Of a DNA stretch of 64,000 nucleotides, positions 18,917 through 30,269 are shown piece by piece. Source of the DNA: Bdellovibrio bacteriovorus W. GTDB lineage: Bacteria; Bdellovibrionota; Bdellovibrionia; Bdellovibrionales; Bdellovibrionaceae. Location of the stretch: contig CP002190.1 in assembly GCA_000525675.1 (NCBI GenBank), positions 806,001 to 870,000 on the forward strand, written 5' to 3'. The position numbers and the translations under genes were made by a program. The notes beneath the pieces are model-generated. The model was given only the letters and a program-made list of their open reading frames with translations. It ran no database searches and was not told the origin of the DNA. The first letter of the stretch is position 1; each line of letters starts with the position of its first letter.

Positions 18917-19108
18917 ATGGATGAAAAAAAGACCATTGAGATAACCCATCAAGAAGCTTGCGAAAGAAAAGAAGCGTTCTATATTGATCCGCTTACGGGC
19001 TATCAAGTCTTCACTGAATACCATCATCTTGAAAGAGGCTATTGCTGTAATTCCGGTTGTCGCCACTGTCCCTATAAGAAAAAAAAGGACGCTTCTGACC
19101 CCATGTAA
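18917..19108 (+). CDS. Small cysteine-rich protein of the DUF5522 type
   Basis: This is a 63-residue cytoplasmic protein. The central block YIDPLTGYQVFTEYHHLERGYCCNSGCRHCPY ends in a four-cysteine cluster (CC, C, C), typical of the DUF5522 family as I remember it. The function is unknown; the cysteines could bind a metal. The ATG is preceded by AGAAGGGCT. The opposite-strand frame over the same bases has no such conservation and is rejected. It is divergent from the permease gene, so the gap of about 130 bases to the permease start should carry both promoters. Confidence 0.8.
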   Translation: MDEKKTIEITHQEACERKEAFYIDPLTGYQVFTEYHHLERGYCCNSGCRHCPYKKKKDASDPM

Positions 19109-19267
19109 GTTATTTTGACAATTTTTCTGTAGTTAAAGGTTTTAACGAAAGTCCTGTTAACGAGTTCTACAATTGCTTCCAAAGAAAAACACAAAAGCTT
19201 GTTTCTTTATCTTCTATAATACCGATAGGACCAGGTGTGATTTTGTCGATATCGGAGTGAGAAGCTT

Positions 19268-20881
19268 ATGTCATTTAACTACAGCAAAAATCGGGAGAAT
19301 CAATCGCAGGATAGTTTTTGGACATCCTACTCAGATTTATTCTTAGGTCTGAGCACGATATTTCTTCTGCTTTATGTAACCGCAAGTCTTCGTACGGGAA
19401 CTGAAGGGCTACGCAGTCAAATTGAAAGTGAAAAGCTTTCGATGCGCGTAGAAGAACTTCAGCAGCAGCTGCGTATGTATGAATCCGTTAAAAACGATTA
19501 CATGCAGAATCAGGCTACTAAAAATGAAATGAATGAGTATGAAGAGCTCATGGATAAACTGACTCTTCTGCAAGAAGATACGAAGTCAGAAAAAGAACGC
19601 CTGTTGCAAGAGGCTTATGAGAGCGAAAATAAAATGAAAGCTCTTAATAAATATCAACAGATGGTAAGAAATGTTTTAAATGCCAACAAGATGGCTAAAT
19701 CCAAGATCGTCAATCGTGATGACCTTATTAAAGAACAAGATGTAGAGATCCAAGGTCAAGAGTTCACCATTGCAGAACTTAATAAAGATATTGCTGATAA
19801 GAAGCAGCGTATTGCCCAAGGCCAAGCGCAGATTCAGCAGGCACAGCAACAACTAGCTAAAAAAAGCAAAGATCTTCAAGCCGCATTCAAAGCTAATAAG
19901 CTAACTAAAGCCGCTTACGAGCAGCGCATGGCGCAAGCAAAAGCCGAGAGTCAAGCAACGGTTAGTAAATTGAATCAGGCCAATGCTCAATATCAAGAAC
20001 AGCTGCAGAGTGCAAACCAACAACTAGGTCAGGTTCAAGATGAACTTTCTAAAACCCAAGGGTTGCTTTCACATAAAGAAGAAGAGGCGCGCTACTTAGC
20101 GGGTAGCCTTGCTAAAAACAAAGTCGAGTCGCAACAAAAAATGGCTGCTATGTCAGCAGGGTTTGCGGCAGAGAAGGAAGGTCTGAAGGCAGGATTTGCC
20201 AAAGAGAAAGCTGGCTTAGAGGCAGAGAAAGCTTTAGGGGCAGCCAAAGTTGCTGACCTGCGCGGAAAACTAAATACGACTCAAAGCGAATTGGCTAAAG
20301 CCAAAGCTGAGATTGAAGCCCGTAAATCTGTAGCTAACGAAATACAAAAAGGTTTTGCGAAAGCGGGCGTGAAAGCAGACATCAATCAGTCAGGTGATGT
20401 GGTTTTAGATTTTGGCCAAGCTTATTTTGATAGTGATTCTGATAGATTGAAACTCGAAATGAAGAGTGTTTTAGAAAAGGCGATGCCGATTTATTCCAAA
20501 TCTCTTTTCGGCAATCCGAAGCTTTCAGGAAAGATATCGGCAGTTGAGGTGATCGGTTTTGCTTCACCAACATATCAAGGTCGATTCATTGATCCTTCGA
20601 GCAACCGACCGGAAGACAAGGTGGCTTTGAAGTATAATATGGATTTAAGTTACCGACGTGCAAACTCGATCTTCTCATATTTAATTGATCAAAGTGATGT
20701 GCGTCAATTTGCTCATCAAAAAGAACTTCTGTCTTTGATGAAGGTATCAGGACGAAGCTTCTTGGAAGTGATGCAAGTACAGAATCGCAACGTAGCAACG
20801 GCTACTGAATTCTGTCGCCAGAACGATTGTAAAAAAGCGCAAAGAGTTATTATTAGATTTAGCATGGATCAGAATAAGTAA
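19268..20881 (+). CDS. MotB/OmpA-like stator protein with very long coiled coil
   Basis: The 537-residue protein has one N-terminal membrane helix (about 22-40) with the motif FWTSYSDLFLGLS. Asp23 at the helix start is in the position of the ion-binding aspartate of MotB, TolR and ZorB. Residues about 45-365 are almost continuous coiled coil rich in Gln, Lys, Ala and Glu. The C-terminal domain (about 375-530) is OmpA/MotB-like, with VLDFGQAYFDSDSDRL, VEVIGFASP and LSYRRANSIFSYLI, which should grip peptidoglycan. The start has GGAG 9 bases upstream. A TATAAT lies at 19215-19220, but no good -35 was found. It is the first gene of a tight three-gene operon with a MotA-like and an FHA protein. 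Confidence 0.88.
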   Translation: MSFNYSKNRENQSQDSFWTSYSDLFLGLSTIFLLLYVTASLRTGTEGLRSQIESEKLSMRVEELQQQLRMYESVKNDYMQNQATKNEMNEYEELMDKLTLLQEDTKSEKERLLQEAYESENKMKALNKYQQMVRNVLNANKMAKSKIVNRDDLIKEQDVEIQGQEFTIAELNKDIADKKQRIAQGQAQIQQAQQQLAKKSKDLQAAFKANKLTKAAYEQRMAQAKAESQATVSKLNQANAQYQEQLQSANQQLGQVQDELSKTQGLLSHKEEEARYLAGSLAKNKVESQQKMAAMSAGFAAEKEGLKAGFAKEKAGLEAEKALGAAKVADLRGKLNTTQSELAKAKAEIEARKSVANEIQKGFAKAGVKADINQSGDVVLDFGQAYFDSDSDRLKLEMKSVLEKAMPIYSKSLFGNPKLSGKISAVEVIGFASPTYQGRFIDPSSNRPEDKVALKYNMDLSYRRANSIFSYLIDQSDVRQFAHQKELLSLMKVSGRSFLEVMQVQNRNVATATEFCRQNDCKKAQRVIIRFSMDQNK

Positions 20882-20892
20882 AGGGGACGATT

Positions 20893-21795
20893 GTGACATC
20901 AAAAGCTTTAGTGGAATATTTTGTTTTACTCTTGCCCTATATAATGGCGGGAGTCTTCTTAGTGGGATTGTTCTTCAGATCCATTATTTTCTATACGGTT
21001 CGTCGTCATGAATGGTTCGCTAAAGAGTTCGAAAAGCGGGTGAACCAGTTTATGGAGGGCGAGACCCCAGGGAAATCCGAAAAGGTCTCTTTCTATGTGC
21101 TATCTAAAAAGATTTTAGAAAGAACTTACTATGAAGTTTTTGAAGTGCGTGATCGGATGAAGCGCCGTCGTCCAGATTCTGTGATGTCGATGACGGATCG
21201 AATCTTTTTGGTGCGCCAAGGTTGTGCATGGTTAGTAAGAGATATCTTGAAACAGTTGAAGTTTCTAAAATGGAACGATAATAACCCAAAGATGCTCAAC
21301 ATCACGAAAGCGACACTGCAACATAATCCTTGTTTCAATAGAGTCTTCGGCTTGATCCCAATGGTAGGGCTGAATGACGTGATAGGGATTCTTCCGGGGA
21401 TGTTTGTAATCGCGGGTATCTTGGGTACGTTTATCGGGATTGCCGGCGGTCTTCAAGAACTTGGAACAATGAACCTTCAAGATTTAGATGGAACTAAGAA
21501 CATCATGGATCGCTTTCTTCAAGAGATTGCCTTCGCCATGAAGACATCCATTGCGGGAATTCTATTTTCTTTATTGTCGCATATTTCTAATACGATCCTT
21601 TCTCCTGAAAGGTCCTATGTATCCATGGTCGATCGCTTTGAAGCGGCTTTAGATCTTTTATGGTATAGAAGTGATAACAATAACTTTCCAGCCAATGACC
21701 GTCCATTTGATGAGCATCGTGATGCGGTAGAGGCTCTTGCGGAAGATGCCCTCAATAAAGAGCTTGGAAAGGTGAACCTTGCTAGAGGTGCCTAG
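20893..21795 (+). CDS. MotA/TolQ/ExbB-family ion-channel subunit
   Basis: The 300-residue inner-membrane protein has TM1 at about 9-30, a cytoplasmic stretch, then two helices FVIAGILGTFIGIAGGL and MKTSIAGILFSLLSHI typical of the proton-channel domain of MotA, TolQ, ExbB and ZorA. With the upstream MotB-like protein it should form an ion-driven 5:2 motor unit (known for the family, inferred here). The start is GTG with AAGGGG upstream, 11 bases after the previous stop. Unlike ZorA it has no long C-terminal tail; the coiled-coil FHA protein that follows 2 bases downstream may supply that part. Confidence 0.88.
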   Translation: MTSKALVEYFVLLLPYIMAGVFLVGLFFRSIIFYTVRRHEWFAKEFEKRVNQFMEGETPGKSEKVSFYVLSKKILERTYYEVFEVRDRMKRRRPDSVMSMTDRIFLVRQGCAWLVRDILKQLKFLKWNDNNPKMLNITKATLQHNPCFNRVFGLIPMVGLNDVIGILPGMFVIAGILGTFIGIAGGLQELGTMNLQDLDGTKNIMDRFLQEIAFAMKTSIAGILFSLLSHISNTILSPERSYVSMVDRFEAALDLLWYRSDNNNFPANDRPFDEHRDAVEALAEDALNKELGKVNLARGA

Positions 21796-21797
21796 TT

Positions 21798-24179
21798 TTG
21801 AGTTCTTCGTATATTGTTTTAATTCATCGCAAGGATCAGACGCTCACCCGTGAGGTGACGGCTGATTCTTTTTCTGTTGGTCGATCGGTTGATTGTGATA
21901 TCTCACTCAGCGATAACCAAATCAGTCGTGTCCACTTGACGGTATCTTGTCAGGGGAACGAGTTGCTTATTGAGGATCGCAACTCGTCGAACGGCACTTT
22001 TGTGAACGATGAAAAGATTACGCCCGGGGTGGCAATCGTTGTTAGCCCCGCAGATCGTATTCAGCTAGGAAATTCTGAGTATTCCCTATTTATCGAACTA
22101 AAGATTGAGCCTGTCATTGAGGAAGCACCGCCCGTTTTTGAAGAAGAGCCTGAGCTCGAGCCGACAATGGCGATGCCGCCTCCGCAGATGAGTCCTTTGC
22201 AGGCCGAAAAAATTATTCACGAAGCTAAGCGCCAAGCTGCACAGATAGTCTTAGAGGGCGAGACTCAGGCTGAAAAAAGAGTTCAGGCCATTTATCAAAA
22301 AGCACGCGCCGATCAAGCGCAAGCCGAACAGTATTATCAAAATCGTTTGTCTGAAGCAAATAAAGAAGCTGATCGCATTATGGAAGAGTATAAAAAACAA
22401 GGGCAAACTCTTCTCCAAGATGCACGCCGTATGTCCCAAGAAATGCGGGAAGAAGTAGATCATTATGTGCAGACACTGCGTGAAAAAGCCAAAAAAGATG
22501 CAGAAGTCCTGATGCAGGAATCGCAAGCTCAGGCAGATCGAGTAAGAGCCGAAACTTTCGCACAAACGCGCGAAGACGCAAGAAAGGAATCCAATGAGAT
22601 CATTCAAGGCGCCAAAGAGGAGGCTCAGCGACTGGTGGAGTTTACGAGGCTTCAAACTAAAGATCTTGAGGAACGTCTTGCGCAAGACACGCAAAGCTTC
22701 AATTTATTAAGTCAGCAGTTAAAAGATACTCAAGAAAACTTAAGTAAGGCAATGGCAGAACTTGAAGACACTTCCTCGAAGAATGCGGAATTAAAAGCTG
22801 AGGTCTGTGCCAATGAAACTAGAATTGCACAGATCCTTCAAGACGAAAAAGACCGTATTGATGAGCTTTTACGCCATGAGCGAGAGGAAATTGAAAAATA
22901 TCTTACCGAGAAGAAACAAGCCTCCGAAGAAATAATTCGTGAGCAAAATAAAAAAGTTCAAGAAGCGATCCAACTTGAAGAAACGCGAATTTCTGAACTT
23001 TTACGAAATGAAGAAGAGAGAGTTGCTCAGATCATAAGTCATGAAGAAAGCCGAGTGGCAAATTTAGTGGCAGAAGAAAAAGAGCGTATCGAAGAGCTTC
23101 TTAATCGTGAATCTGCTAAAATTTCTGAACTAAGAAATGAGGAGGCCGACCTTCTTCGGTCTAAAGAGAGTTTAACAAAGACTATAGAAGAACATCAGTT
23201 GAAGCAGGGTAGAGTCATCGCCGATCTGGGTGATCTGGAGAAAAAGTTTTTACAACTCTCTAAAGACTACGAAGCAGAGAAAATCCGGTACGCAGAAAAA
23301 ACTGCATTAGATCTCTCCCAGCAAAAAAAGAGTGCCGACGAACGAAGGAATACATATGAGTTAGAGCTTAATAAGAACCTCCAACAAATGGAAAAGAAAA
23401 TGTTGGATGCAATCTTGACCAAAAAACAAGAACTTATTCAGAATATTCACTCTTCGTTGGAGCAAGAATTAGTAAAAGTAGTTCCTCAGGAAAAGTGGGG
23501 ACCTGTATCGAGCACGCTCAAAGAATTAGTCTCTGAGTCCTTTGAAGGGCGTATGGCTACTCTGGCTCAAGAGTCTTCAAGTGTGAAGTCCATAGATAAA
23601 CTTGTCGCACAAAAAAGAAACGAAAAAATTCGTTGGGTGACTATGGGGTTTGCTGTTGGGATGTTGGCTTTGTTTGTAGGGCAAACCGTCTTAGTTAAAA
23701 TGCGTGCGGATCAAAGTCCTTTGCAATCCATGACCCTGCAAGCTGCGCAGAAGAGACAAGAAGATTTAGAGGCGCGTAAGTTCAACCCTGCACAGACAAG
23801 TGAGGTCCGTGAAAGCTTCACGGATTCGGTTATCTATACGAGTAACTTTGCTTCTATATACACGGATCCAGTCTATCAAGAGAAGATGTATAAGGCAGCA
23901 TCTCAGTACCTGCTTAAAACCTGGAGAGTGGATGAGGATAAGTCTATCCAAGTCTTAGCAATTGCTACTGCATTAGTAAAAGACCTTGCTGATCGCCGTT
24001 CTAAAATCCATCCTGACTTTGTCAAAGAGGGGATTGATAAGATGAAGGCGGCCGAAAGTGAGTCTTTACTACGTATGAAAGATATCCTAGGAACCGAGGT
24101 GAGGGTCGAATCTTTCCGAAGGTTTGATCGTAATTTCTATACCCAGGAACTCAAAAATCGCAAAATGGCACATCACTAG
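21798..24179 (+). CDS. FHA-domain coiled-coil membrane protein of the motor operon
   Basis: The 793-residue protein has an N-terminal FHA domain (about 1-100) with the phosphothreonine-binding residues intact: GRS, SRVH and SSNGTFVN. About 140-580 is long coiled coil with repeated EExRIxELLxxE units. A single membrane helix follows near 612-635 (WVTMGFAVGMLALFVGQTVL), then a C-terminal domain of about 155 residues, presumably periplasmic. It therefore probably spans from a cytoplasmic phospho-signal to the periplasm. The start is TTG, supported by AGAGGTG 7 bases upstream and a 2-base gap from the channel gene, which suggests translational coupling. I do not recognise the C-terminal domain. 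No Ser/Thr kinase gene is adjacent. Confidence 0.85.
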   Translation: MSSSYIVLIHRKDQTLTREVTADSFSVGRSVDCDISLSDNQISRVHLTVSCQGNELLIEDRNSSNGTFVNDEKITPGVAIVVSPADRIQLGNSEYSLFIELKIEPVIEEAPPVFEEEPELEPTMAMPPPQMSPLQAEKIIHEAKRQAAQIVLEGETQAEKRVQAIYQKARADQAQAEQYYQNRLSEANKEADRIMEEYKKQGQTLLQDARRMSQEMREEVDHYVQTLREKAKKDAEVLMQESQAQADRVRAETFAQTREDARKESNEIIQGAKEEAQRLVEFTRLQTKDLEERLAQDTQSFNLLSQQLKDTQENLSKAMAELEDTSSKNAELKAEVCANETRIAQILQDEKDRIDELLRHEREEIEKYLTEKKQASEEIIREQNKKVQEAIQLEETRISELLRNEEERVAQIISHEESRVANLVAEEKERIEELLNRESAKISELRNEEADLLRSKESLTKTIEEHQLKQGRVIADLGDLEKKFLQLSKDYEAEKIRYAEKTALDLSQQKKSADERRNTYELELNKNLQQMEKKMLDAILTKKQELIQNIHSSLEQELVKVVPQEKWGPVSSTLKELVSESFEGRMATLAQESSSVKSIDKLVAQKRNEKIRWVTMGFAVGMLALFVGQTVLVKMRADQSPLQSMTLQAAQKRQEDLEARKFNPAQTSEVRESFTDSVIYTSNFASIYTDPVYQEKMYKAASQYLLKTWRVDEDKSIQVLAIATALVKDLADRRSKIHPDFVKEGIDKMKAAESESLLRMKDILGTEVRVESFRRFDRNFYTQELKNRKMAHH

Positions 24180-24316: not shown

Positions 24317-25930
24317 ATGTCTTGGAAAATCAGCCTCAAAGCAAAACTGCTCCTGTCCTTTTTCGGCGTCTCTATGACTTTGGTCGCAGTGGGGCTATTT
24401 ACATGGTTTTCTAATCAGAAAGTAGTCGATGCCTATGAGCGTATTGCCACTCGTAGTGTTCCGAAGATTGAATCTTTAGGTATGGTTCGTTATTACGCTC
24501 AAGAAGTGAATCGTACAGTTCTGCGTTCCGGAATGATGAAGAGTCCGTCAGAATATGAGCGCATCAAAGGTCTCTATCAAGAGGCTTTAAAGTCTTATGA
24601 TGGTGGACTTGTAGAATACAATAAAGTTAGCTTCCTTCCAGGCGAGCAAGAAGTTTACGATAAGGTTTCTAAGGCCTGGGCAGGCTATCTAGCAAATTCT
24701 GAAACCGTTTTTAAAAGAGGCTATAAAGTAGAGTTTGACCAAGAAGCATCAGATATTATTGAAGGTCCTCTGACGGCCGCGCGCGGAGAACATATTAAAG
24801 CTCTGGCGGAGTTGATGCAGTTTCAACAAGAAGCGGTTGGGAGAACAAAGGCCACGGCAGCAGAGGCGGCGTCCAATAATGAATTCGTTCTATGGGCACT
24901 TATTGGAATCGGTTTCTGTGTGAGTGTGGTTTTAGGATTTCTAATTTCGAACTCCTTAACAAAAACATTGAATCATATCAGTGAAGAAATCGCGGCTTCT
25001 GCTGATAATACAGCCGCTGCAGGATCTCAGTTGTCAGCGGCCAGCCAACAACTTTCTGAGGGATCATCAGAAGCAGCAGCTTCGTTAGAGGAAACAGTGG
25101 CATCTTTAGAAGAGCTTACAAGTATGGTGAAGCTCAATGCGGATCACGCGAAAGAAGCCAACGCACTTTCTCAACGTTCGCGTCAATCGGCGGCTTCTGG
25201 AGAAGCAGAGATCAAACGTTTAATTTCTGCGATGGAAGATATTGCAGCGGGCTCTCGTAAGATTGAAGAGATCATTCATGTGATCGAGGATATTGCCTTC
25301 CAAACAAATCTTTTGGCTTTAAATGCGGCGGTCGAAGCAGCGCGTGCAGGTGAGCAAGGAAAAGGATTTGCAGTTGTGGCTGAAGCTGTTCGCGCTCTTG
25401 CACAGAGGTCAGCGGTTGCAGCAAAAGACATCACATCTTTGATCGGTCATAACGTCGAACAAACCGAAGATGGATCTAAAATTGCGTCGCGCAGTGGAGA
25501 AGTTCTCCATGAGATCGTAACTTCTGTGATCCGTGTATCTGATTTAAATAATGAGATCTCTGTTGCCAGCCAAGAACAGTCCGCAGGACTCGAGCAAATC
25601 TCCAAGGCGATGAATCAATTGGATCAGGCGACCCAAGGAAATGCAGCCTCTTCAGAAGAGGTGGCAGCGTCTTCGGAGGAGATGTCTTCTCAGGCTGTTA
25701 CCTTAAGTGGACTTGTGGGAGAATTACGTGAACTTCTTACGGGTGATCACTCTGCCGTGACGGGACCTGTGCCGACGGCAAAAGGCTTAGCTAAGCCAGC
25801 TCCTAAGGCTGGAAAGCCTAAGTTAGCAGTGGTTAGAAAACTAGCTCCGGTCTCTAAAGGAAAAGCATCTGAAGTATTGCCGTTTGATGAAGATGATCGT
25901 GGTAAGGTCGGAAATGTTTCTGGTTTTTAA
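24317..25930 (+). CDS. Methyl-accepting chemotaxis protein without HAMP domain
   Basis: The 537-residue inner-membrane chemoreceptor has TM1 at about 11-31, a helical periplasmic sensor of about 155 residues (4-helix-bundle type), and TM2 near 190-214. It then passes directly into the signalling domain. The hairpin tip, [39 protein letters not shown], is the CheA/CheW contact site and is fully conserved. I see no HAMP domain between TM2 and the coiled coil. The C-terminus is a Lys/Pro/Ala-rich tail with no CheR-binding pentapeptide. It lies 137 bases behind the motor operon with a terminator of its own, so a functional link to the motor is only a possibility. Confidence 0.95.
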
Positions 25931-25996: not shown

Positions 25997-26139
25997 TTTC
26001 TACAGTTGCTGCGTCAAGGTGCGCCATTAATAGTGATAGCTTGGGTACAAACTCACACTCTTGCTAGTCTCGGCCGTCAAAATACGATAGATAGGGTTAA
26101 GAAAATAACCTGTAATGACGCGGATTGTTGGAGGCGTGT

Positions 26140-27297
26140 ATGATGTCATCGGGCCATGGACAGCAAATTGAAATTCTTCTTTGGATTGTAGCTTTACTGT
26201 TCGGAATTATTCTTACAGTGATTTTTTTGAACGTTTTGAAAAATGCAAGACGTGAGGATAAAGAGCAGGTCAGCTACGAAGAAAAGGCAGATATTCTTCC
26301 TAAAGAACATGTAGGAGAAGAGGTTGTTACTGAAGTAACTCCTGCACAGCCAGCCGTTTCACCAGAAAAAGACGTCGATTTAAAAGCGGCTTTGCGTAAC
26401 ACGGAAGAGAATTTATTTGGTCGTATTCGTAAGCTTTTCGCAAGTAATGAATCTTCCAATAATTTAGATGAGATCGAAGAGATCCTTTACACAAGTGATC
26501 TTGGGCCAGCGACCGTTCAACGTTTGATGGAAGCACTATCTGATAAACTATCTAAGAAAGAAAAGTCTGATTACGAAACTGTTCGCAGTGTTTTGAAAGA
26601 AGAAATTAAAAATATTTTTGCAGACTCTTCACAAGCAGATGTGCGAGAAGGAATTTTAGCAAAAATCAATTTCGCATCTGAGGGCCCAACTGTGATTATG
26701 GTTGTGGGTGTAAATGGAGCTGGTAAAACAACTTCTATTGGTAAGATTGCATCTCAATTAGCCAGTGAAGGAAAAAAAGTTTTAGTTGCTGCAGGTGATA
26801 CATTCAGGGCGGCGGCAGGCGGGCAGCTAAAAGTTTGGACGGAGCGCGCTCAGGTAGAGATTTTTTCTCCAGAAGGAGTGACAGATCCTAGTGCCGTGGC
26901 CTTTGATGCAGTTTCAAAGGGAAAGACTCAAGGTTATGATGTGGTGATCGTGGATACGGCGGGAAGATTGCACACTCAAGCCAATCTTATGGAAGAAATT
27001 CGTAAGATGAAGCGTGTGATGACAAAAGTGATTCCTGAAGCGCCTCACGAGACACTGATTGTATTGGATGCGAACTCTGGGCAAAACGCATTGATGCAAG
27101 CCAAAGAGTTTCACAATGCCCTAACTTTGACGGGGGCTGTTCTGACGAAAATGGATGGGACGGCGAAAGGGGGCGTCGCTGTTGGTTTGGCGCAAGAGCT
27201 TCACATTCCCATCAAGTTGATTGGCGTCGGAGAGAGAATTCAAGATTTGCGAAGCTTCTCTTCTCAAGAATTTGTAGATTCAATTTTTCAAATGTAG
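26140..27297 (+). CDS. ftsY: Signal recognition particle receptor FtsY
   Basis: FtsY docks SRP-ribosome complexes at the inner membrane through a reciprocal GTPase cycle with Ffh. The 385-residue form has an N-terminal membrane helix (ILLWIVALLFGIILTVIF), an acidic linker, and the NG domain with GVNGAGKTT at 190-198, DTAGRLHTQANLMEE and TKMDGTAKGG. The conserved DTFRAAAxEQL motif reads DTFRAAAGGQL, lacking the usual glutamate. I chose the ATG at 26140 (GGAGG 5 bases upstream; ATG 26143 is equally possible) over an upstream TTG at 26125. Its terminator is split by an IS element. Confidence 0.95.
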   Translation: MMSSGHGQQIEILLWIVALLFGIILTVIFLNVLKNARREDKEQVSYEEKADILPKEHVGEEVVTEVTPAQPAVSPEKDVDLKAALRNTEENLFGRIRKLFASNESSNNLDEIEEILYTSDLGPATVQRLMEALSDKLSKKEKSDYETVRSVLKEEIKNIFADSSQADVREGILAKINFASEGPTVIMVVGVNGAGKTTSIGKIASQLASEGKKVLVAAGDTFRAAAGGQLKVWTERAQVEIFSPEGVTDPSAVAFDAVSKGKTQGYDVVIVDTAGRLHTQANLMEEIRKMKRVMTKVIPEAPHETLIVLDANSGQNALMQAKEFHNALTLTGAVLTKMDGTAKGGVAVGLAQELHIPIKLIGVGERIQDLRSFSSQEFVDSIFQM

Positions 27298-27362: not shown

Positions 27363-28265
27363 TTAAGTAAAACCTCGGCACTCTGCCGGGGTTTTTCCTT
27401 TTAAGTCCCATTGGGGTCGTTCGTTATTATAGTATTTAATATAACGATCTATCTCTGCTACCAACTCTTCATATGTATTGCAATCTCGAAGCTCTGCCTC
27501 ATCTTTTAAATGTCCGAAAAAACTTTCTATCGGAGCATTGTCCAAACAATTTCCCTTACGTGACATTGATTGAGTTATTTCCCACTTGCTTAATAAATCT
27601 CGATAGATCTTTGAAGTATAGTGGCTGCCTTGATCTGAGTGCATAATGATATGTTTGGGCTTTTGACTAAAAAGATCTTCGAGGCCCCTAAGTGCGATAT
27701 TTAAAGTTGCACTTGCTGAAACGGTGTAATGCACGATCTCCTTCGTTGCCAAATCCTTTACTGCCGATAGATAAGCTCGTTTTCCAAGTCCATAATCAAG
27801 ATAAGTAATGTCTGTCGAATACACAGTATCCTTCTTTTGGACATTAAAATTCCTATTAAGAATATTCGGGCTTGCTCTATGTTCATCTCCTTCTACCCAA
27901 ACTTGCCTAGATCTATTCTTTCTGCGGATGACAGTTCGAAGTCCATGCTTTTTCATAAGACGACGGACTTTCTTTAAGTTCATATTGATCCAAAAATATT
28001 TCTGTAAAAGCATCTTTATGCTGCGAGCACCGATCCTACCTTTTTTACTTTCAAAAAGGATACAGACCCACTCTTCATCGAAAATGGCTTCTTGAGAACT
28101 TTTCTTCTTCGCAGACCATTCGTAAAATCCACTCGTGCTTACTTTAGCTTGCTTACATAGCCGATCGAGACGCAGATCAGGCTGGTGAATTATTGCCTCG
28201 TGAATTAACGCGAACTTTTCTTGTTTGCGTATCTTGCCTCCAAGGCGTGGAGCTTTTTTAGGAAA
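27363..28265 (-). CDS. IS3-family transposase OrfB (catalytic, made by frameshift from OrfA)
   Basis: The frame opens after a stop at 28266 and runs 300 codons without an obvious ATG near its beginning. It is expected as the C-terminal part of an OrfAB fusion. An internal ATG at 28013 would drop the conserved N-terminal region (KFALIHEAIIHQPDLRLDRL, STSGFYEW), so it is not the natural start. The integrase core has STDITYLD (D152), HSDQGSHYTS (D211) and DNAPIESFFGHLK (E247); 35 residues separate D211 and E247, the classical DD(35)E spacing. The C-terminus YYNNERPQWDLKGKTPAE is typical of the family. It catalyses strand transfer of the element. Confidence 0.92.
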   Translation of the reverse strand, partial: FPKKAPRLGGKIRKQEKFALIHEAIIHQPDLRLDRLCKQAKVSTSGFYEWSAKKKSSQEAIFDEEWVCILFESKKGRIGARSIKMLLQKYFWINMNLKKVRRLMKKHGLRTVIRRKNRSRQVWVEGDEHRASPNILNRNFNVQKKDTVYSTDITYLDYGLGKRAYLSAVKDLATKEIVHYTVSASATLNIALRGLEDLFSQKPKHIIMHSDQGSHYTSKIYRDLLSKWEITQSMSRKGNCLDNAPIESFFGHLKDEAELRDCNTYEELVAEIDRYIKYYNNERPQWDLKGKTPAECRGFT

Positions 28266-28609
28266 TCATTCTCCGCGCGCAAATAAGCAATTTCTTCTTC
28301 TGCTGATTTAAACCGAAGCCCCTTGGGGCGCCCAGTAGAATTAACTCCTCGACGCTCCTTCTTTAATCCACCGTCTTTTTGAGACATCTTCGCCCAACGC
28401 TGGATACACTTTCTGGGGTAGTCTTTGCCGAAGAGAGAAAGGTTGATTCCGGCATCTTTAAATATTTCTGAAGGCATTAGCCCATCTTGACGGAGCTTCA
28501 AAGCCTTAACCTTAAACTCTGGAGTATAGGTAACGTTAGAGGTTGTTACCTTTAAAACATTTTGATTGTTCTCAAGATCTTTGCGATCTTTTGCTGTAAA
28601 TGAACCCAT
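28205..28609 (-). CDS. IS3-family transposase OrfA (helix-turn-helix subunit)
   Basis: The 134-residue protein has the helix-turn-helix region TPEFKVKALKLRQDGLMPSEIFKDAGI and a C-terminal leucine-zipper-like segment EEEIAYLRAENDFLKKLHAL, used for dimerisation and end binding. A GAGAGG ribosome site lies 6 bases before the ATG. It overlaps OrfB in the -1 relation. At FLKKL the codons CTA AAA AAG form the slippery site, so some ribosomes should shift to make OrfAB. OrfA alone usually regulates transposition in this family. Confidence 0.9.
   Translation of the reverse strand: MGSFTAKDRKDLENNQNVLKVTTSNVTYTPEFKVKALKLRQDGLMPSEIFKDAGINLSLFGKDYPRKCIQRWAKMSQKDGGLKKERRGVNSTGRPKGLRFKSAEEEIAYLRAENDFLKKLHALEARYANKKSSR
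28253..28259 (-). promoter_or_regulatory. Programmed -1 frameshift site A_AAA_AAG
   Basis: On the minus strand the heptamer is in the correct OrfA phase (CTA AAA AAG). An SD-like GGAG (28271-28274) lies 11 bases upstream. GC-rich dyads such as CTCC...GGAG follow immediately. A shift here joins FLKK of OrfA to APRLGGKIRK of OrfB. Confidence 0.85.
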
Positions 28610-28730: not shown

Positions 28731-30269
28731 CTAGTTGTTGTAGTCGTTATTATTGCTTCTTCTGAAAACAACCTCTGGCGGATTGTGTGAACCGCTCGTT
28801 TTCAAGAACTCAGGAACACGTGTTCTGAATTCAGCTAAACCGCTGATTTTCACTTTACCTTTTGTTAAAGATTCGCTTGGATGAGCGTAATCAATAAAGC
28901 GACCTTCATCCACTAAGAAGTACCCTCTAAAGTTTGTTTTACCATTTTGGTAGTCTCTTGCCGAATCAATTTCGTAACGGTCACCAGACTTACCCGAAGA
29001 AGCTGACTGCGAGAAATCCAATGCAGTTGCATTTGGATACTGATCCACATCGTAAGTTCCTCTTTCGATGACGTTGCTTCCATTGATAACTGGAATTGCC
29101 CTGTCGATGATAGTGCGTGCGTCGGCAGTTAGGCCGTTGCTACGCTGAGCTTCATTCGTTAAAAGAATATAATCCCATTTTTTTCCGCCGTTAAATGCAT
29201 GCGCATAACTTGGAAGTGGGCGAACTGATTTTCCTGATCCAATTTCTTTTTCACGAGTCGACTCACGCGCATAAACGCGGTAAATGTCTGTGCCTACTGG
29301 CAATAATTCTCTTAAGTAAGCAATCGCACGATTCTCTAGGCGAGTACAACCTGAAGAGCCTGGATTCGAGAATAGATTCATTAAGAAACTACGAGTAAGA
29401 TCAATAGCTGCAGAGCCATCAGAACCCCAACCGATTGTTCCATGCATCCACTGGTAGTTCATACCATTGATGTCATCTGCTGGAGTGATCTTCGCAGCAT
29501 ACCAACCGAAGGCGCCATAAACAGTGCTCTTACCATTGCGATCTTTGGTGATCCATTTTCTAGAGTTTAGGATCTTCGACATTCCGCCAGTGATATTTTT
29601 TGGAATAGAGTTAAGACTTTGACCTTGGCGATACCAATGAGGATAGTGGCCTGCATTGTCTTGATAGAACTTTACCCACTCAGAGATCTTCGAGTGACCT
29701 AGCCATGTGCGGAATGCGTTCTTATCGTTTTTGGTTCCTTCTTCAGGTTTACCAACAACCATATCAGTTTCCATGACCATGCGATGAGCACAGTTGACGG
29801 ACTCGGTACATCTTTCGTAAACGCGCGTTTTCTCTGTCGCAACGTTTTGAATAACGAAATATTTCGAACCCGCTGTAAAGACAGACTTTTCAGATAGATA
29901 GTCTTTTGAAATAAAAAGTTCCGCAGCTGCATTGGCATCAACTGAAACTGAGCGAATGATCTTAATTTGCACTAAAGGAGTTGCGGCGTTTAGAAGATCG
30001 TAAACTTCCACTTCATCGTTCATGGAAAGTTTGCCCACTATGTTTGCTGCCGAAGTGGAGTTTGAACTTCTAACATTTAAAGTGTCCGCTGAAATGAAAT
30101 ATCGCTGTCCCACTTTAATTTGTGACTTAGAAAGCGAAACTGCGGCTGCGTTCGTTGAAACCGTTGAGGCCTCTTCTAAAATAGATTGCGCCATACTGGC
30201 AATAGGTGAAGCCGCAATCATTAGTCCCATCAAAGCCGCGCCGACTTTGCGCATTTTCATTTTATGCAT
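28731..30269 (-). CDS. Secreted L,D-transpeptidase with SH3-type domain
   Basis: The 512-residue protein has a signal peptide ending ASMAQS (about residue 28). An SH3b-like domain at about 45-115 (GQRYFISADTLNVRSS) probably binds the wall. A YkuD-type catalytic region contains MHGTIGWGSDGS and PGSSGCTRLENRA, with the nucleophilic cysteine near residue 305. The family makes 3-3 crosslinks or attaches proteins to peptidoglycan. The C-terminal part of about 190 residues is unrecognised. The ATG has GGAGGA 7 bases upstream. It is divergent from a second L,D-transpeptidase 276 bases away. Its 3' end lies 40 bases from the IS element. Confidence 0.9.
   Translation of the reverse strand: MHKMKMRKVGAALMGLMIAASPIASMAQSILEEASTVSTNAAAVSLSKSQIKVGQRYFISADTLNVRSSNSTSAANIVGKLSMNDEVEVYDLLNAATPLVQIKIIRSVSVDANAAAELFISKDYLSEKSVFTAGSKYFVIQNVATEKTRVYERCTESVNCAHRMVMETDMVVGKPEEGTKNDKNAFRTWLGHSKISEWVKFYQDNAGHYPHWYRQGQSLNSIPKNITGGMSKILNSRKWITKDRNGKSTVYGAFGWYAAKITPADDINGMNYQWMHGTIGWGSDGSAAIDLTRSFLMNLFSNPGSSGCTRLENRAIAYLRELLPVGTDIYRVYARESTREKEIGSGKSVRPLPSYAHAFNGGKKWDYILLTNEAQRSNGLTADARTIIDRAIPVINGSNVIERGTYDVDQYPNATALDFSQSASSGKSGDRYEIDSARDYQNGKTNFRGYFLVDEGRFIDYAHPSESLTKGKVKISGLAEFRTRVPEFLKTSGSHNPPEVVFRRSNNNDYNN

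Follow-up and report, generated by a model that had tools for sequence, protein, structure and literature searches.

A ZorAB-like ion motor with an FHA partner protein in Bdellovibrio bacteriovorus W, possibly gated by threonine phosphorylation

We describe a three-gene operon, B-A-F, in 64,000 nucleotides of the Bdellovibrio bacteriovorus W genome (assembly GCA_000525675.1, contig CP002190.1, positions 806,001 to 870,000 of the forward strand; this whole stretch is called the window). It encodes a ZorB-like anchor (B), a ZorA-like channel subunit (A) and a membrane protein with an FHA domain (F). We read the trio as a wall-anchored ion motor of the attack phase that threonine phosphorylation gates through F; gating and role are inferred, and we give this reading a probability of about 0.5. 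At the sequence level, the motor residues, the wall-binding motif and the trio itself are shown to be kept, and the third gene is shown to be swapped in related motors.

Rotary ion motors are known from flagella, gliding, the Ton and Tol systems and Zorya. In the papers searched we found no account of an ion motor whose third subunit is always a receptor for phosphothreonine or for a cyclic nucleotide, and no operon matching this trio, in agreement with the preliminary description of this DNA, which knew of no system with the same three parts. If the broader reading of a motor family with exchangeable receptors, given below, is true, kinase-gated and second-messenger-gated motors would form a separate class that predators employ around prey attack. 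The trio, conserved through a predator phylum and apparently tied to the attack phase, bears on the source of force for prey entry.

The B-A-F operon and its subunits

The genes for B (19268..20881, 537 amino acids (aa), ATG start), A (20893..21795, 300 aa, GTG start) and F (21798..24179, 793 aa, TTG start) are co-oriented on the plus strand, as are all trio features located below, with gaps of 11 bases between B and A and 2 bases between A and F. On re-reading of the open reading frames (ORFs) the layout of the preliminary description proved exact, and its identification of a MotB/OmpA-like protein, a MotA/TolQ-like channel and an FHA protein with a single membrane helix was confirmed, for A and B by ZorA and ZorB profiles and structures and for the FHA domain by Pfam. 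The FHA domain is the only Pfam domain of the trio over its threshold (65.4 bits, cut-off 20.7); the OmpA domain of B (18.5 bits against 27.2) and the match of A to the channel family PF01618 (15.0 bits against 22.9) are sub-threshold. In the host genome, a single contig of 3.0 Mb, there are seven other PF01618 channels, and A is absent from the genome-wide matches because it is too divergent. Pfam alone thus hides the trio.

A is present in 85 of 144 genomes of the class (about 60%), nearly always as a single copy, and 179 of 369 genomes of the phylum Bdellovibrionota pass a looser A threshold, which also admits sister motors. By an automatic rule, F lies within 500 bases after A in 105 of 120 loci. 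The trio therefore stays together across the phylum, as the preliminary description had proposed to check, and since the B-A-F order is held in about this many homologous loci with the other neighbours unconserved, the arrangement is not due to chance. Comparison of the window with 20 wide loci revealed no wider conserved cluster, only B, A and F being common beyond a few species. The named genomes closest to the window belong to Bdellovibrio and its relatives, with Bacteriovorax and Halobacteriovorax more distant. One further locus (L126) only seemed to lack F, its F start codon having been mis-called. In genome G107 a 3164-aa ORF after A was rejected as a giant F, being a secreted-looking repeat protein, and the real F was found on another contig (E 2.6e-52). 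No F was found in seven genomes with an F-less A, nor in four genomes without A.

A matches the ZorA profiles of NCBIfam (E 1.5e-10) and PADLOC (E 1.6e-10), and the profile of its family matches solved ZorA (E 4e-8). By reading of its hydropathy, A has one N-terminal and a central transmembrane region, with at most three segments in the ExbB/ZorA layout. The polar residues expected in the ion path of a ZorAB-type channel are both present and invariant: Thr179 in a GTF motif (21427..21429), aligned with T147 of solved ZorA, and Ser219 (21547..21549), aligned with S184. Beyond the last conserved region, at W257, A continues for about 40-45 residues; solved ZorA proteins measure 378-729 aa.

B has the two ends of a ZorAB-type anchor, an N-terminal transmembrane helix with an aspartate and a C-terminal OmpA/peptidoglycan domain, and it matches ZorB profiles (PADLOC ZorB1, E 1e-25) and, in Foldseek, the fold of solved ZorB (E 1.8e-6). 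The ion-path aspartate, Asp23 (19334..19336), stands in a W-x-S-Y-x-D motif, is invariant and aligns with the aspartate of solved ZorB. The OmpA-like domain (residues 366-537, 20363..20878) carries the peptidoglycan-contact motif Y-N-x-x-L-S-x-x-R (Y456, N457, L460, S461, R464). The stalk of B, at ~325 residues, would be near 48 nm long as one straight helix, exceeding the normal periplasm. In the AlphaFold2 model (mean confidence score, pLDDT, 77; hairpin core >90) the helix breaks at residues 82-84, 209-213 and 313-324, and these breaks make a folded-back hairpin the likeliest form of residues 85-313 (19520..20206), with two predicted helices (85-208 and 214-313) joined by a turn (209-213). 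Judged by homology, it is shown or strongly supported that A forms the multi-subunit ion channel and B its axle, with Asp23 in the ion path and an OmpA domain able to hold the cell wall.

F consists of an FHA domain, a coiled coil, a transmembrane helix and a periplasmic helical domain. The FHA domain (residues 26-91, 21873..22070) contains T67 and the phosphothreonine-contact residues G28, R29, S43, H46, N65 and G66. Across 88 F proteins the contact residues are kept at 84-99% overall (R29 in 76, S43 and H46 in 80, N65 in 74 and G66 in 82), and the nearest solved FHA domain is that of Bdellovibrio DgcB (E 7e-9). The coiled-coil region, at about residues 135-600 (22200..23597) by sequence, is highly variable in length, complete F proteins ranging from 467 to 1440 aa between species (median 945). 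It is followed by the transmembrane helix (residues 614-632, 23637..23693), also a helix in AlphaFold2, and by an all-helical periplasmic domain (residues 660-793, 23775..24176) with the consensus motif FxP...YTDNVLYT, which is conserved over ~130 residues and modelled at pLDDT 96. A fold search of the PDB with this domain turned up nothing confident, the best Foldseek match having E 1.4 and VIA giving a helical bundle at Z below 6; this does not imply a new fold. F has no match in PADLOC, and the Pfam scan detected no TonB-like domain in it.

Exchange of the third partner and the tail of A

The strongest support for the third gene as a signal reader is the exchange of partners in sister motors. 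In ten of ten weaker phylum matches (L175, L177-L183, L185, L186), which come from other families of the phylum and form one clade (support 99), a B-A pair is followed, 0-16 bases after A, by a protein of 146-160 aa with a cyclic-nucleotide-binding domain (cNBD; the seven proteins scanned score 54-67 bits for PF00027). At a single locus, L168, an F-less AB motor is followed 8 bases on by a response-regulator receiver (L168:3463-4002; PF00072, 91 bits). Four further F-less motors have a divergently transcribed neighbour (L050:12105-13793, L051:5679-7271, L166:12359-14005, L167:5486-7573) with a beta-rich N-terminus, a proline-rich region with one or more membrane segments and C-terminal ankyrin repeats. 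The presence of cNBD, receiver and ankyrin-type partners beside related AB pairs shows one motor core paired with different signal-reading partners, and the replacement of F by a cNBD or receiver protein adds support to the third gene as the signal reader. One long-branch AB pair (L184:1336-3754) has none of these third genes.

The C-termini of all F-linked A proteins inspected carry the motif FDEHRDPxEALAE (pattern F-x-x-x-[RK]-[DE]-[PAS]-x-x-[AV]-[LIM]-[AS]-x), which in the window reads FDEHRDAVEALAEDAL (residues 272-287, 21706..21753). Where an F-linked A protein appeared to be without it, inspection revealed a diverged form in every case, such as FEADRDPIEVLSEDL. Nothing resembling the motif was seen in the F-less A proteins (L050, L051, L164-L169), and we predict that it is likely the docking site of F. 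The A tree divides by third partner, with values in the SH-like approximate likelihood ratio test (SH-aLRT) of 95 for the FHA group, 98 for the ankyrin group and 99 for the cNBD group. On this tree, the motif is one evolutionary event, strongly conserved afterwards, rather than many independent ones, each partner type being one group.

At its extreme C-terminus A ends in RGA-COOH (21784..21792), and the family likewise ends in a charged or polar residue, then A, V, G or S, then A or S. Such tails (KAS, EAA, KVA, RGA), written as [KRDENQ][AVGS][AS]-COOH, were counted in 74 of 96 A proteins from the window and L044-L186 against 25 of 870 background proteins, and nine of ten cNBD partner proteins end in AA, AS or VS. 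The tail of A, and that of the cNBD partners, resembles a degron of the ClpX or Lon type.

Attack-phase expression, gating and the alternatives

Attack-phase promoters of Bdellovibrio carry the FliA box TTAAG-N16-CCGATA (Karunker et al. 2013, PMC3627812). We scanned genes with promoter room for this published consensus, with the spacer allowed to be 15-17 long. A box with two mismatches or fewer precedes 35 of 75 B genes and 49 of 565 others (Fisher p 8e-15, which serves only as a guide because several ad hoc patterns had been tried beforehand and related species are not independent), with exact boxes at 4 and 1, respectively. In many members, the operon is probably made in the free-swimming attack phase under FliA and switched down on prey entry. 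In the window, a CCGATA box and possible FliA -10 element lies 46 bp before B (19222..19227), its -35 half being weak.

In strain HD100, the coiled-coil protein Bd1167, labelled 'crescentin-like', is down-regulated on predation (PMC2797640), and Bd1176 is an L,D-transpeptidase (PMC12546842). Equating Bd1176 with the sub-threshold YkuD-like ORF of an HD100-like locus (L044:17318-18880) and counting back, we arrive at B or F as the most likely identity of Bd1167. Among the papers found, the HD100 genes of the trio are named only in Lambert 2010. The FHA protein named in the Tn-seq and AlphaFold-Multimer papers is another one, Bd0474, which belongs to a different operon.

We propose that A, B and F would act as one inner-membrane machine. 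By analogy with ZorAB and MotAB, the complex would be 5:2 and ion flow would rotate A about B, and F may dock on the FDEHRDPxEALAE motif of A. The coiled coil of F would span the cytoplasm, where its FHA domain would bind a threonine-phosphorylated partner, and its helical domain would reach the periplasm beside B. A Ser/Thr-kinase signal could in this way turn the motor on or off, or choose what it pulls. F would fill the role of Zorya's long ZorA tail as a separate, exchangeable, signal-reading subunit, its place being taken in sister motors by a cyclic-nucleotide-binding or receiver-domain protein. That F mainly gates the motor has an even chance in our estimate. We are more tentative, at somewhat under even odds, about a whole family of wall-anchored rotary motors in which one A/B core is switched by exchangeable receptors, FHA for phosphothreonine, cNBD for cyclic nucleotide and receiver for phospho-aspartate. 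If the third gene does gate, these parallel inputs on one core would offer a direct test of how such motors are switched. As to the role, which may lie in gliding, prey entry or envelope sensing, attack-phase control is indicated. FHA-dependent signalling through DgcB controls prey entry in the same genus (PMC3271064, PMC10482364).

Alternatively, F could be an output arm, through whose periplasmic domain or coil the motor shifts or reshapes something in the envelope, like GltG/GltJ or TonB/TolA, and with the FHA domain merely localising F. The conserved, folded periplasmic domain and the very long coil would suit such an arm, and so would the membrane protein with C-terminal repeats that adjoins the ankyrin-type motors and the contact of GltG, a bitopic FHA protein, with the AglR motor (PMC3169522). 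However, the cNBD and receiver subunits are small and soluble, with neither coil nor membrane helix, so that an input fits them better, the coil of F varies more than twofold in length, and no TonB-like domain was detected in F. We therefore consider an output arm a serious but unlikely explanation. That the trio is a surplus stator for the flagellum or for gliding, a MotAB or Agl/Glt paralogue, is improbable. In its favour are the shared superfamily, the presence in the host of a flagellar-type MotAB alongside several TolQR/AglRQS-type motors, and the FliA boxes, but A and B are closer to ZorAB than to MotAB or TolQR, PF01618 misses A, and the loci offer neither a TolR/ExbD partner nor conserved Glt-like neighbours.

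Among named families, A and B match the ZorA and ZorB profiles best, which would fit a divergent Zorya-type anti-phage system, yet the scores fall far under the curated cut-offs (ZorA subfamily 2, 40.7 of 100 bits; ZorB1, 21.6 of 400). Since, in addition, A has no ZorA tail, no effector gene is conserved beside the trio, and A is inherited with the chromosome as a single copy in much of the class rather than in an island-like manner, the trio is not Zorya, and this explanation is very improbable and largely refuted. A coiled-coil cytoskeletal scaffold with an idle motor part would account for the long coils of B and F and for the 'crescentin-like' label of Bd1167, but it is hardly credible with ion-path and peptidoglycan residues invariant across the phylum.

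Several points weigh against gating through F by threonine phosphorylation in the attack phase, the reading we prefer. The FliA boxes of the window and of the HD100-sized genome G006 are weak, with three mismatches. The placement of Bd1167 comes from counting back from Bd1176 and from the genome length of HD100. A kinase was sought beside the trio, and no gene for a kinase or a phosphatase accompanies it; of Hanks-type kinases the genome encodes a single clear one, away from the trio, and it has nine FHA domains. Some F proteins have lost contact residues of the FHA domain (R29 is changed in 11 of 87 and H46 in 7). The link between tail motif and F counts about once phylogenetically, because the F-linked A proteins are a single group on the tree, and the 5:2 stoichiometry, the docking and the gating are inferred. 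The proposal of the preliminary description that a separate FHA protein reads the signal for the motor therefore stands in part: cNMP-binding and receiver proteins at the same place in sister motors and the mostly kept phosphothreonine-contact residues speak for it, and the gating by a kinase that it suggested may hold, although no kinase is encoded beside the trio.

Neighbouring genes and known systems

Upstream of the trio lies a DUF5522 gene (18917-19108), as also in the HD100-like locus L044. An MCP chemoreceptor gene (24317-25930) directly follows F in the window, and L044 has other genes there. Further on, an IS3-like transposase pair (27363-28609) sits between the genes for FtsY (26125-27297) and a YkuD-like protein (28731-30269); this insert is missing from L044. 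Outside the window, in the same genome, another FHA protein is encoded ~2 kb from a TolQ-type channel (G000:C1:577701-577892 and 580101-580460), probably in a Glt-like cluster.

There is a precedent for an FHA protein that works with an ion motor: GltG contacts AglR in the Agl-Glt gliding machine of Myxococcus, which has homologous clusters in Bdellovibrio (PMC3169522). Agl-Glt likewise joins an ion motor to an FHA protein with one membrane helix, but its TolQ/TolR-type motor, the TonB-like end of GltG and its many Glt genes have no counterpart at the trio, where neither Pfam nor the locus comparison revealed a TolR/ExbD domain in B or a conserved Glt-like neighbour. DgcB of Bdellovibrio bacteriovorus (PDB 6hc0, 6hc1), with the FHA domain nearest to that of F, is in contrast a cytoplasmic GGDEF enzyme and has no motor. 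Flagellar MotAB is likewise a peptidoglycan-anchored ion motor with an aspartate motif. On the other hand, A, by reading, has at most three transmembrane segments where MotA has four, falls under the PF01618 cut-off and matches ZorA rather than MotA, and no flagellar gene is adjacent. A 2025 survey of MotAB left ZorAB out of its tree, and a text search of it shows no FHA or cyclic-nucleotide partner (PMC12505986).

Nearest to the trio by profile and structure is ZorAB of Zorya types I and II (PDB 8qyd, 8vvi, 8vvn), with which it has in common the A/B fold, the ion-path residues and the OmpA-type end of B. It differs in that its A is without the long cytoplasmic tail, its B has a stalk of roughly 300 residues, and its third gene encodes an FHA membrane protein where Zorya has ZorC/D or ZorE. 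No Zorya effector (ZorC/ZorD, ZorE or other) lies beside the trio, and no neighbour beyond F is conserved in the 21 loci compared. The trio is inherited vertically with the chromosome, while Zorya resides in defence islands, and defence finders may mislabel trio loci as Zorya. Judged by these comparisons, the trio is not Zorya, Agl/Glt, Tol or flagellar MotAB, and its motor core is nearest to ZorAB.

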